Shown here: one piece after another, positions 3,961 to 35,437 of the stretch
Position numbering within the stretch: position 1 is the first letter of the stretch
Layout of the letters: every line of letters starts with the position of its first letter
From: Geobacter sp. SVR
GTDB lineage: Bacteria > Desulfobacterota > Desulfuromonadia > Geobacterales > Pseudopelobacteraceae
Reading direction: 5' to 3'
DNA length: 64,000 nucleotides
Assembly (NCBI RefSeq): GCF_016865365.1
Contig: NZ_AP024469.1
Span: forward strand, 2,386,501 to 2,450,500
Notes under the pieces: generated by a model
What the model was told of the DNA's origin: nothing
What the model saw: only the letters and a program-made list of their open reading frames with translations
The model's database searches: none
Made by a program: the position numbers and the translations under genes

Positions 3961-3982
3961 GTTCGGTCTCCGTCCTTTAAAA

Positions 3983-4120
3983 GATTGTTGAAAAACGGGC
4001 ATCTCGCCGCCGTCCTCGTCAGTCACCTTGTGCGGTGTAGCGCTGCTACGCCTCCGCGGGACTTCCTGCGGGGATGCGACGATCTACCCATTTTTGAACA
4101 ACCTGAAAATTTCAACAATC
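3983..4120. repeat. Palindromic intergenic repeat, copy 1 (between rpiB and fabF)
   Basis: The gap between rpiB and fabF is bounded by a perfect 11-bp inverted repeat, GATTGTTGAAA at 3983-3993 and TTTCAACAATC at 4110-4120. Its arms continue with partial complementarity, and its core is a smaller palindrome at 4027-4057 (CTTGTGCGGTGTAGCGCT then GCTACGCCTCCGC). The same core, in opposite orientation and split by 18 bases, recurs at 40160-40208. It ends two bases before the fabF stop codon. This looks like a REP- or MITE-like dispersed repeat rather than a simple terminator. Confidence 0.7.
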
Positions 4121-10497: not shown

Positions 10498-11985
10498 CTA
10501 GGATTTCAAGCGGCCGTACCGCTCCAGCATCTCGGCCAGAGAAGGTCCCAGATGGCGGGGAACGATGCCCCAGGAAAAGCGCCAGCCCCAGTTGCCGCTG
10601 GAGGTGCCGGGCAGGTTCATGCGGGCCTCCGAGGGGAGGCCGAGCAGGTCCTGGAACGGAAGGATGACGGTGTTCGCGACCGACATCAGCGCCAGGCGCA
10701 GGATGGCTCCCACGGCTTCGTGACCGGAGCTGCCGATATACTCGCACACGTCGTGGCGCTGCGTCGGGGAAAGGCTGTCGAACCATCCCAGGGTGGTGTC
10801 GTTGTCGTGGGTGCCGGTGTAGACGATACAGTTGCGGATATGGTTATGGGGCAGATAGTAATTGTCCGGTCCCGAATCAAAGGCGAACTGGAGGATCTTC
10901 ATCCCCGGATAGTCGCATCTGTCACGCAATGCCTCCACCTCGGGAGTGATAACTCCCAGATCCTCGGCAATGATGCTGACGCGACCCAGGGCGGCGTGAA
11001 CCGCTTCGAAAAAGGGATACCCCGGCCCTTTGACCCATGTCCCCTGCTCTGCGGTCTTGTGGTCCGCCGGAACATGCCAGGCTGCCTCGAAGCCGCGAAA
11101 ATGATCCACCCGTACCCCATCGAACTGGGAGAACAGATGCCGGAAGCGGTCGATCCACCAATCATAACCCTGCTGCTCCAGCCGGTCCCAGTCATAGAGC
11201 GGATTGCCCCAGAGCTGGCCCGTTGTGCTGAAATAATCCGGCGGTACACCCGCCACGACCGTCGGCCGCCCCTTGGCGTCGAGCAGGAAGATGCTGCGGT
11301 TGCGCCACACATCGACTGAATCGTAGGCCACGAAGATGGGAATATCCCCGATGAAGGAGATGTGCCGGTCAGCGGCATAGTCCCGCAATGACTGCCATTG
11401 CCGGTAAAACTGCCACTGCATGTATTTCTGCACCCCGATCTCAGGGCCCAACTCCACTGAAGCGGCTTCGTATGCCCCCGGTTTGAGCAGGGCTACGTCG
11501 GAGGGCCACTTATGCCAGCTCACGCCGTGATGGTGGTGCTTCAGTGCCATGAAAAGGGCGTAGTCGTGCAGCCAGGGGGTGGTATCGCAAAAATGCCAGA
11601 ACTCCTTCATCCTGACGGTTTCGCCTGCGGCAAAGAAGGCTGCGGCCGCTTGCCTGAGCGCGGCAAATTTGAACGAACATACCTTATCGAACTGCACGAC
11701 ATCGTCGGAGAAGGTCTTGTTGCGGAAGCCGCGCGGCAGATCCCCCTCGGCGACGAGTTGGCTCAGATCGATCAGCAGCGGGTTGCCCGCGAAGGCCGAA
11801 AATGCGGAGTACGGGGAATTGCCGCAGGCAGGGGGAGTCAGGGGAAGAAGTTGCCAGAACGACATGCCCATGGCGGACAGCAGATCCACAAACCGCCGCG
11901 CATCGGCACCCAGCGTGCCAATGCCGCCGGCTCCCGGAAGCGATGTGGGATGAAGCAGAACGCCGCAACTTCGTCGCTGTAACAT
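10498..11985 (-). CDS. malQ: 4-alpha-glucanotransferase (amylomaltase)
   Basis: Glycoside hydrolase family 77 enzyme that transfers alpha-1,4-glucan segments between maltodextrins, probably for glycogen or maltodextrin turnover. The 495-residue protein opens with SCGVLLHPTSLPGAGGIGTLG and contains the nucleophile segment GVRVDHFRGFEAAW, the acid/base segment IIAEDLGVITPEV and YTGTHDNDTTLGW. The start at 11985 follows a GGGGAGG site on the minus strand; the frame is open 23 codons further without a better start. No glycogen gene is adjacent. It is divergent from clpB, separated by an unusual inverted-repeat element. Confidence 0.95.
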   Translation of the reverse strand: MLQRRSCGVLLHPTSLPGAGGIGTLGADARRFVDLLSAMGMSFWQLLPLTPPACGNSPYSAFSAFAGNPLLIDLSQLVAEGDLPRGFRNKTFSDDVVQFDKVCSFKFAALRQAAAAFFAAGETVRMKEFWHFCDTTPWLHDYALFMALKHHHHGVSWHKWPSDVALLKPGAYEAASVELGPEIGVQKYMQWQFYRQWQSLRDYAADRHISFIGDIPIFVAYDSVDVWRNRSIFLLDAKGRPTVVAGVPPDYFSTTGQLWGNPLYDWDRLEQQGYDWWIDRFRHLFSQFDGVRVDHFRGFEAAWHVPADHKTAEQGTWVKGPGYPFFEAVHAALGRVSIIAEDLGVITPEVEALRDRCDYPGMKILQFAFDSGPDNYYLPHNHIRNCIVYTGTHDNDTTLGWFDSLSPTQRHDVCEYIGSSGHEAVGAILRLALMSVANTVILPFQDLLGLPSEARMNLPGTSSGNWGWRFSWGIVPRHLGPSLAEMLERYGRLKS

Positions 11986-12029
11986 CTGATGCCTCCCCGG
12001 ACCAGTGTGAGTCTTCAGTCCGTTGTTTA

Positions 12030-12058
12030 AACATACCTCATAGCGGCATTGCAATCAA
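12030..12058 (-). promoter_or_regulatory. Candidate promoter for malQ
   Basis: On the minus strand TTGATT (12053-12058), a 17-base spacer and TATGTT (12030-12035) lie about 45 bp before the malQ start. Both boxes match the sigma70 consensus at four or more of six positions. Confidence 0.5.
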
Positions 12059-12085
12059 ATTCATCGCCTCTTTTGACTGTGTGGG

Positions 12086-12265
12086 CGTCCTGCATCCGTG
12101 CTGCCTCCCTGCCGGGACGCCTGAAAGGCCTCTGCCTTTGCATTTCCCCGGCATGAAGCCTCTCAGCGGAGGGCCGGCGGATTAAGCAACCGCCGCAGCC
12201 CGGCGACGGTCGGGCCCCGGCTTCTTTCAGGCGTCCCTACAGTCCGGCAGCACAGATGCAGGACG
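12086..12265. repeat. 180-bp element with 42-bp imperfect terminal inverted repeats
   Basis: The arms 12086-12127 and 12224-12265 match as inverted repeats at 36 of 42 positions, with an outer block reading CGTCCTGCATC and an inner block GGGACGCCTGAAAG shared exactly. The 96-bp interior contains a nested hairpin (CGGCGG at 12175-12180 pairing with CCGCCG at 12190-12195) and further GC-rich pairing. It has no coding capacity. It lies outside both predicted divergent transcripts, so a terminator is an unlikely explanation. It could be a MITE-like remnant, a structured RNA or a regulatory element. Confidence 0.75.
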
Positions 12266-12274
12266 TAGCGAACC

Positions 12275-12303
12275 TTGACTTTGCTTGGCGCGGTGCTTAT
12301 CTA
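12275..12303 (+). promoter_or_regulatory. Candidate promoter for clpB
   Basis: TTGACT (12275-12280), a 17-base spacer and TATCTA (12298-12303) lie about 38 bp before the clpB start. The upstream CTTGACTT also resembles the -35 of heat-shock sigma32 promoters (CTTGAAA), which would fit clpB, but the -10 side (CTTATCTA) is a poor match to CCCCATNT. The sigma factor is therefore undecided. Confidence 0.45.
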
Positions 12304-12341
12304 GAAAAATAAGGCACATTATTTAAAGCGGGGAAAACCAT

Positions 12342-14948
12342 ATGGACTTCAACAGACTGACGCAGAAATCCCAGGAAGCGTTTGCCGAGGCGCAAAACAA
12401 GGCGGTCACCTACGGACATGTGGAGGTGGACGGTGAACACCTGCTGTGGGCGTTGCTGGAGCAGGCCGAAGGGCTGGTGCCGCGCCTGCTGGCGCGCATG
12501 GACATACACCCCGAGGCGCTGAAAAACGAGGTCGAAAAGGAGCTGGAGCGCCTGCCCCGGGTTTCCGGCCCCGGCGCCGAGCCCGGCAAGATCTACGTTT
12601 CCCAGAGACTCTCGCGAATTCTCGTGGCTGCCGAAAATGAGGCTAAACGGCTCAAGGACGAATATGTCTCGGTCGAACATCTGTTGATTGCACTGCTGGC
12701 CCAGGGAGAGAAGACCCCTGTGGGCCGCATTCTGAAACAGGCCGGGGTCGACCGGGAGAAGCTGCTGGCCGCCCTGACCGACGTGCGCGGCAACCAGCGG
12801 GTCACTTCCGCCACTCCGGAGGCCAGTTACGAAGCCCTGGAAAAGTACGGCCGGGACCTGGTAAAGATGGCCCACAGCGGCAAGCTCGATCCGGTCATCG
12901 GCCGCGATGAGGACATCCGCCGGGTGATCCGCATCCTTTCCCGCAAAACAAAGAACAACCCGGTGCTGATCGGCGAGCCAGGCGTAGGCAAGACCGCCAT
13001 CGTGGAGGGGCTGGCCCAGAGGATCGTACGCGGCGACGTGCCCGAGGGGCTGAAGGACAAGACCGTCTTTGCCCTTGATATGGGGGCCCTGGTTGCCGGC
13101 GCCAAGTACCGCGGAGAATTCGAGGAACGCCTCAAGGCGGTGCTGAACGAGGTCAAGCAGGGAGAAGGGCGCATCATCCTCTTTATCGACGAATTGCACA
13201 CAATTGTAGGTGCCGGCAAGGCCGAGGGGGCCATGGATGCCGGCAACATGCTCAAACCGATGTTGGCCAGGGGGGAGCTGCACTGCATTGGCGCAACCAC
13301 CCTGGACGAATACCGCAAGCACATCGAAAAAGATGCCGCCCTGGAGCGCCGTTTTCAGCCGGTGCTGGTGGAACAGCCCACCGTGGAGGATACCGTCTCG
13401 ATCCTGCGGGGCCTGAGAGAACGCTTCGAGGTCCATCACGGCGTCAAGATCCAGGACAATGCACTGGTGGCGGCTGCCGGCCTTTCCAACCGCTACATAA
13501 CCGACCGTTTCCTGCCTGACAAGGCCATCGACCTGGTGGACGAAGCCTGCGCCATGCTGCGCACCGACATCGATTCCCTACCGGCCGAGCTGGATGCCAT
13601 CTCCCGCCGGGTGATGCAATTGGAGATCGAGGAGCAGGCCCTTAAAAAGGAAAAGGATCCGGCCAGTCAAGAGCGACTGGAGACCTTGCGCCGGGAGCTG
13701 GCAACCGACAAGGAAAAGGCTGCCGCCATGCGGGCCCAGTACGACACCGAAAAGGTAGCCATCCAGCGCGTCCAGGCCCTGAGAGAGCAGATCGAGAAGA
13801 CCCGCCGCGATATCGAACAGGCCGAGCGCACCTATAATTTGGAGCAGGCCTCGAAATTGAAGTACTCCGAACTGCCCGGTCTGGAAACCGCCCTCAGGAA
13901 CGAGGAGGAGGCCCTGGCAGCCAAACAGGGGGGGCATAAGCTGCTGCGCGAAGAGGTTACGGAGGAGGAAATCGCCGAGATCGTGTCCCGCTGGACCGGC
14001 ATCCCGGTCACCAGGCTGGTGGAAGGCGAGCGCGAGAAGCTCCTGAGGCTGGAGGATATCCTGCATCAACGGGTGATCGGCCAGGACGAGGCGGTGCAAT
14101 TGGTGGCCGATGCCGTCCTGAGGGCGCGCTCGGGCATCAAGGACCCCAACCGCCCCATCGGCTCGTTCATATTCCTCGGTCCCACCGGAGTCGGCAAGAC
14201 CGAGTTGGCGCGCACCCTCTCCTCTTCCCTGTTCGACTCTGAGGAGAACATGGTACGCATCGACATGTCCGAATACATGGAGAAGTTCGCCGTTTCGCGG
14301 CTGATCGGCGCCCCTCCCGGTTATGTCGGCTACGAGGAGGGGGGGCAGCTGACCGAAGCGGTGCGCCGCAAACCTTACTGCGTCCTGCTGTTCGACGAGA
14401 TTGAAAAGGCCCATCCCGACGTGTTCAACATCCTGCTGCAGATCCTGGATGACGGCCGGGTGACCGACAGCCAGGGGCGTACGGTCAACTTCAAGAATAC
14501 GGTCGTCATCATGACCTCCAACATCGGCGCCCCGTATCTGATCGAAGGGATCACCCCTTCGGGCGAAATCCGCGAGGAGGCGCGCCACAACGTCATGCGA
14601 GAACTGCGGGGCGCTTTCCGTCCCGAGTTCCTCAACCGGGTGGACGATATCGTGCTGTTCAAGCCGCTGAACCTTGACCAGATCGTACGGATCGCGGAGC
14701 TGATGATCGGACAGCTCAGAAACCGGCTCATGGACCGGCGCATCAATCTGGAGATCAGTGAAGAGGCCCTGCGTTTCATCGCGGAGGCAGGGTACGACCC
14801 GGTCTACGGTGCCCGGCCGCTCAAGCGTTACCTGCAACGTGAGTTGGAAACCCGCGTGGCAAGGGCAATCATAGCGGGCAATGTTCCCGAGGGATCGACG
14901 CTGCAGGTCGAGTTGCAGAATGGAGGTCTCGTGATCCACGTCAACTGA
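12342..14948 (+). CDS. clpB: ATP-dependent disaggregase ClpB
   Basis: Hsp100 AAA+ chaperone that works with DnaK to dissolve protein aggregates. The 868-residue length is standard. In order: Clp N-terminal repeats (1-145), first AAA+ module with Walker A GEPGVGKT at 211-218, a coiled-coil M domain rich in Glu, Lys and Arg (about 400-520), and a second AAA+ module with Walker A GPTGVGKT at 613-620. The M domain distinguishes it from ClpA and ClpC. The start [14 protein letters not shown] is typical. Monocistronic: a hairpin overlaps the stop codon and the next gene is 370 bp away. Confidence 0.97.

Positions 14949-32196: not shown

Positions 32197-35437
<3,241 letters not shown>

Follow-up and report, generated by a model that had tools for sequence, protein, structure and literature searches.

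The hairpin between malQ and clpB of Geobacter sp. SVR is very probably an old copy of a gene-less MITE family

IS1380 elements such as ISEcp1 have ends that start with CCT and make 5-bp duplications, TIMEs combine inverted repeats of about 40 bp with 5-bp duplications, and ERIC is an intergenic palindromic repeat of 100-200 bp with a long hairpin. TIMEs are miniature elements derived from Tn3, according to the part of the source available (PMC4133298), and Correia and QMITE2 are described, in an excerpt of a second account, as intergenic palindromic repeats of 100-200 bp with long hairpins (PMC10969869). The same excerpt describes Chunjie, a MITE of Geobacter uraniireducens Rf4 with 38 full and 57 partial intergenic copies of 178-235 bp that carry terminal inverted repeats and direct repeats (Chen et al., 2008, via PMC10969869). 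Palindromic multicopy intergenic families also occur in G. metallireducens and G. bemidjiensis, and the ends of one set of Geobacter multicopy sequences form inverted repeats, as the available portions of these reports have it (PMC2700814, PMC2996986). An orientation that follows replication is known, from part of a further source, for IS200/IS605, Tn7 with TnsE and a number of IS families with a sliding-clamp-binding transposase (PMC5371812). A limited search of the open-licence literature found no other description of a Geobacter MITE, nor one of a replication-linked orientation of a MITE.

We analysed a 64,000-nucleotide stretch of Geobacter sp. SVR, here called the window, in which a long hairpin lies between the divergent genes malQ and clpB (Table 1). 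This hairpin is very probably an old copy of a family of MITEs of about 180 bp that have inverted repeats based on CCTGAATCCGTGA, make a 5-bp target duplication, carry no gene and occur mainly in one family of the order. Like Chunjie, the family is a Geobacter MITE of similar size, with inverted and direct repeats and an intergenic location; this comparison is by description only, and the excerpted Chunjie account does not mention fork polarity. The two may be one family, likened by description only. We are dealing with a known kind of element, a MITE, and possibly with an already named member. The multicopy sequences of G. metallireducens and G. bemidjiensis, as partially available, are likewise comparable by description only. 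Correia, QMITE2 and ERIC are alike in size and fold but differ in sequence and host, and the portions of their accounts at hand do not mention fork polarity. TIMEs share inverted repeats of about 40 bp and 5-bp duplications with the present family, the ends of which differ from those of Tn3. IS1380 elements such as ISEcp1 share CCT-type ends and the 5-bp duplication; however, no IS1380 transposase scored over the cut-off in any of seven genomes; fragments in G012 fell short of it, and the matches in G000 were weak.

Table 1. Features at the malQ-clpB locus (positions in the window)
Feature	Position	Strand	Basis
MITE copy, subfamily A, ~180 bp	12086..12265	+ (= strand of model R1)	21 own-genome places, model match, folding
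Left arm, terminal inverted repeat	12086..12127	+	repeat search
Interior, non-coding, G+C-rich nested hairpins, in part conserved among copies	12128..12223	.	copy alignments
Right arm, terminal inverted repeat, terminus GATGCAGGACG	12224..12265	+	repeat search
TTGACT, probable -35 of clpB, 9 bp past element	12275..12280	+	conserved in relatives without the element
malQ (4-alpha-glucanotransferase, PF02446)	10498..11985	-	ORF list, domain search
clpB	12342..14948	+	ORF list, domain search

The arms of the window copy, 42 nt long and 96 nt apart, match at 36 of 42 positions (86% complementary), as had been predicted from the sequence. This is the top 42-nt inverted repeat of the malQ-clpB gap; 200 first-order Markov shuffles of the gap averaged 22.3 matches and never exceeded 26. 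The family end CCTGAATCCGTGA reads CCTGCATCCGTGC at 12089-12101, model R1 (see below) matched 12083-12268 with 179 bits, and the minus strand folds better, both as RNA and as DNA. The interior had been said to lack an ORF and the element to be no terminator, and both statements held. Among the ORFs of at least 100 aa listed, one of 127 aa extends from malQ into the element (11802-12185) and is read as spurious; the ORF list contains no transposase gene within the 180 bp. A scan of 11950-12360 found no terminator, although most copies with two called neighbours sit 3' of a gene.

The TTGACT words previously noticed on both flanks are real (12073-12078 on the left), but the right-hand one is part of a CTTGACTTT...GTGCTTA stretch that two relatives lacking the element also have upstream of clpB, and is therefore probably part of the clpB promoter and not of a target duplication. 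A strict sigma-70 consensus scan of 11950-12360 detected no promoter and likewise missed this TTGACT. An obvious target-site duplication had not been seen, and indeed no 5-bp duplication flanks the ends of the window copy, with GGCGT on the left and ACGTA on the right. The malQ start was placed from the sequences of relatives; the ORF list gives an upstream TTG, at 12054. In G002 and G005 the two genes are divergent and the element is absent, and their malQ-clpB gaps are too diverged to reveal an insertion junction. In G001, G012, G021 and G029, malQ and clpB lie 1.5-3.8 kb apart, and the stretches read at this locus from these four genomes and from G002 and G005 contained no model match. The window copy looks old. 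We infer that its insertion into the promoter region between malQ and clpB left the clpB promoter in place; the expression of either gene may be affected. Its identity as a MITE accounts for a hairpin that could otherwise be mistaken for a regulator of these genes.

The original prediction left a MITE, a regulatory structure and a small RNA as options; dispersed copies with variable flanks were to favour the first, and the lack of any other copy was to speak against the proposal. A search of the 4.72-Mb genome with a 211-bp query returned 23 rows, two of which were the element's own arms reversed, leaving 21 places. When the 20 other copies were aligned with their flanks, they matched along about 180 bp, the flanks were unrelated and homology stopped at the ends. 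Other copies thus exist in the genome, as they do in relatives, and they are dispersed in the way expected of a MITE.

We built a covariance model, R1, from 19 own-genome copies of this type (subfamily A). In the same genome it gave at least 64 matches at E <=0.01 among the 150 of 2617 candidates that were scored, some of these matches being one copy on both strands. Reading 23 of the weaker matches, we assigned 17 by eye to a subfamily B, which has the same ends as A, is homologous along its length and includes three copies in tandem; six were deviant. The genome thus holds about 40 copies overall, from 21 A places and some 17 of B. The tandem copies (L066 2044-2612; G000:C1:1112546-1113108) are spaced by 191-192 bp, each preceded by an identical or near-identical 20-bp flank. 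Across the order, a minus-strand model, R2, matched 25 of 141 genomes at E <=1e-6, 20 of these 25 in the window's own family, f1, and R1 matched 20 of 57 at E <=0.001; both searches used stricter filters that lose weak matches. The host family of the MITE within the Geobacterales is one that we take to be the Geobacteraceae. With these models, the family, which extends over several related genera, can be searched for. Plasmid and phage collections gave no match with one query each; 12 viral-contig stretches with a 17-letter end pattern had no model match and were taken as chance. Two genome contigs with the core pattern carry actinobacterial titles, and the window itself contains a weak partial R2 match at 33264-33361 (16.7 bits, E 0.027).

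The copies end in CCTGAATCCGTGA/TCACGGATTCAGG. For the analysis of these ends we assembled 90 copies: genus g6 contributed 46, each standing for one orthologous group, other genomes 12, and the own genome 19 of A and 13 of B; further own-genome copies, including L027, L028, L061, L062 and L065, had been omitted beforehand, and dropping two A copies with fewer than 8/13 end matches left 88. Flank repeats abut the 13-base ends as 5-mers, with a mean identity of 0.53 at length 5 and of at most 0.36 at all other lengths from 1 to 14. Exact 5-bp duplications flanked 16 of the 88 copies, and 29 had at least 4/5 (shuffled means, 0.36 and 2.65). All exact cases lay outside the own genome (16/58; shuffled mean 0.42); none was found among the 17 A and 13 B copies tested there, that of the window included. 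The own-genome copies lack this mark and are probably older insertions. Insertion into palindromic targets was rejected: complementarity of the flanks is confined to the first two positions (0.50 and 0.41, against 0.18-0.31 at later ones), which suits a partly symmetrical 5-bp target.

An empty site was found for the L113 element of G007, which has TTTAT on both sides; G014 has a single GTTAT and no element, within wider flanks that are 95-97% identical. The site is imperfect, with about 25 bp left of the insertion poorly aligned, and G019 and G029 carry a different repeat near this spot. Together with the dispersed copies and the 5-bp duplications elsewhere, this leaves the MITE as the option that stands among those first proposed, and a structured RNA is not favoured.

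Many g6 insertions are old, as 16 of the 46 orthologous groups have members in two to five genomes. Copies are also lost or shrunken, as seen in a remnant arm in G029 and in 31-bp palindromes. The latter (L203 ~358-388, L214 ~350-380) are perfect or near-perfect and consist of the two 13-base ends alone; the flanks of the G029 palindrome resemble those of the full element L107 in G007, so that it looks like the product of an internal deletion. Some orthologous copies diverge far beyond their flanks, for example L108 and L150 (28% vs 9%), which suggests, on sequence comparison, that copies convert or replace one another.

With a crude ORF caller and without collapsing orthologues, 75 of 108 copies had two called neighbours: in 31 both genes ran in the direction of the element and in 18 against it, 23 were convergent and three divergent. 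Counting the window copy, divergent contexts make up 4/76. In a sample of 20 own-genome stretches of 20 kb each, divergent gaps are 17% of the gaps of at least 20 bp and 21% of intergenic bases, so that divergent promoters appear avoided (p = 0.003 by gaps and 0.0002 by bases, with the own-genome baseline applied to all copies). The place of the window copy is therefore unusual.

On the minus strand, the consensus of the 19 A copies folds to -70.8 kcal/mol, against -33.1 for the plus strand. The outer arms of subfamily A vary between copies and stay complementary, with two-sided changes at 23 of 49 minus-strand pairs (plus strand, 15 of 33), which exceeds the simple decay of a dead MITE and speaks against that reading. 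Among 78 copies of other genomes, two-sided changes affected 39 of the 49 pairs (shuffled mean 15.6, slid controls 14-20), in an alignment that includes orthologues and was fitted to the model, which favours covariation. These figures suit a structured non-coding RNA or leader that is read off the minus strand and maintained by selection at each locus, as do the outer-stem mismatches of A, which lean to minus-strand wobble pairs (36 to 9), and the direction and place of the window copy, which would fit a malQ leader. We nevertheless regard this explanation as very unlikely. Several of the A mismatches are common by descent, and the wobble bias falls off in B (14 to 8) and in copies of other genomes (outer stem, 65 to 48; inner stems, in an alignment fitted to the minus strand, 250 to 94). 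By DNA energies, the minus strand is the more stable in 15/21 A and 15/16 B copies but in only 20/46 of g6. Between orthologues, in overlapping genome pairs, one-sided changes mostly break pairs (187 vs 100 that keep them); two-sided changes keep pairs in 32 cases and break them in 18. Position and direction relative to genes are not fixed, and in the Rfam search of window positions 11500-13000 no family came near its threshold, the one hit scoring 18.8 bits against 100. Compensatory changes had been expected of an RNA at one conserved locus; they were found, but between copies at many dispersed loci, and thus do not by themselves make the element a functional RNA. We read the covariation as structure tied to mobility or as arm-to-arm copying, two causes inseparable here, rather than as function at each locus. 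In all three groups conservation peaks in model columns 24-52 and 136-162 (0.87-0.91), and the outer segments score lowest in A (0.68-0.69, counting flanking columns). As judged from the alignments, this suits putative sub-terminal binding sites, which leave the drift of the A tips unexplained.

The copies tend to be oriented with the replication fork. Fork polarity was scored with the origin taken at dnaA and with lists compiled by hand from R1 matches. In the own genome, where a switch of GGGNAGGG words places the terminus between about 2.18 and 2.39 Mb, the R1 plus strand ran along the fork in 14/21 A copies (p = 0.19, not significant) and 16/21 B and deviant copies (p = 0.027), or 30/42 overall. 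Among the matches listed for relatives, agreement was 15/16 in G029 and 8/12 in G019 (p = 0.39), the terminus of both being assumed opposite the origin, and, on the dnaA-bearing contig, 15/15 in G014 and 9/9 in G007; of two further G019 copies among the R2 matches, one agreed. With orthologous groups counted once, 31 of 35 agreed in g6 (p = 3.5e-6), 11 of the 46 groups being left out for having no origin on the contig or lying outside the four genomes used. Gene direction was considered as the cause and rejected in view of the 31 same-direction contexts with and 18 against the element in all context rows; those with fork information were 13 with and 10 against (entered by hand, orthologues not collapsed, a tandem pair counted as one), and transcription is at most a weak factor. 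A hairpin-strand cause, in which the stabler strand is kept off the lagging template, fits the own genome but was rejected because it fails in g6, where polarity is strongest and stability is not biased to the minus strand.

MITEs in general would not be expected to show fork polarity, which counts against the MITE reading. This polarity could be explained by a single-stranded-DNA element moved by a Y1 transposase, of the IS200/IS605 type or as a REPIN with its RAYT, since all of the 14 IS200-like copies that score highest in the own genome have the same polarity (three other Y1 matches were uncounted); the long structured hairpin would also suit such an element. Y1 (IS200/IS605-type) transposition, however, is not known to make a 5-bp target duplication. 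Moreover, 52 of 57 genomes and all 17 genera have Y1 genes, and 20 of the same 57 were found to have the element, so that the two do not track each other, and a scan of 12 Y1 loci for the end, with up to three mismatches, found no close pair. We consider a Y1 origin extremely unlikely. Co-option of a transposon-derived hairpin for a role on the replicating chromosome would accommodate the g6 polarity, the loci common to up to five genomes and the avoidance of divergent promoters, but seems improbable in the extreme, given that stems decay between orthologues, copies are lost or shrunken, polarity is weaker in the own genome and 116 of the 141 genomes of the order have no R2 match.

For the MITE, then, a transposase would have been supplied in trans and may be lost or unrecognised in the genomes searched. 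Binding at the ends and at the sub-terminal blocks, it would have placed the element in 5-bp targets rich in A+T, for the most part 3' of genes. One strand would usually have been aligned with the moving fork, perhaps through contact of the transposase with the replication machinery; the hairpin would be a consequence of the symmetry of the ends. It is conceivable, if rather unlikely, that insertion or survival of this MITE is set by fork direction regardless of transcription, with the arms changing in step, through either an as yet unnamed polarity-reading transposase or a hairpin co-opted on the replicating chromosome. A gene-less family with both 5-bp duplications and polarity offers a handle on what in the element, or in the lost enzyme, carries the polarity.

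No parent with the same ends was detected with NF033539 in seven genomes or with the end pattern, among the matches listed for six genomes and in the own genome. The 13-base end occurs 66 times in the own genome with at most one mismatch and, among the matches listed, is frequent in five relatives. One candidate for an autonomous copy, G000:C1:2479841-2481014, has two inward end-like words 1.17 kb apart and was rejected, as no transposase-like ORF was seen by eye.

Other repeats were noticed in passing. A palindromic repeat unrelated to the MITE, its ends resembling AGGTTGTTGAAAAA...TTTTTCAACAACCT, lies at 3982-4104 of the window and also in L115, L118, L125, L141, L204 and L205; it is present or absent between sister genomes, and in L141 it directly adjoins an element of the MITE family. 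A 183-bp insertion in G014, absent from G007 (L144 2990-3174), has the ends GGGACT.GGAA...TTCCAAGTCCC and is another miniature element. Finally, five IS200-like genes with identical scores are spaced by about 7 kb in G000:C1 208616-236763, as if in an amplified array.
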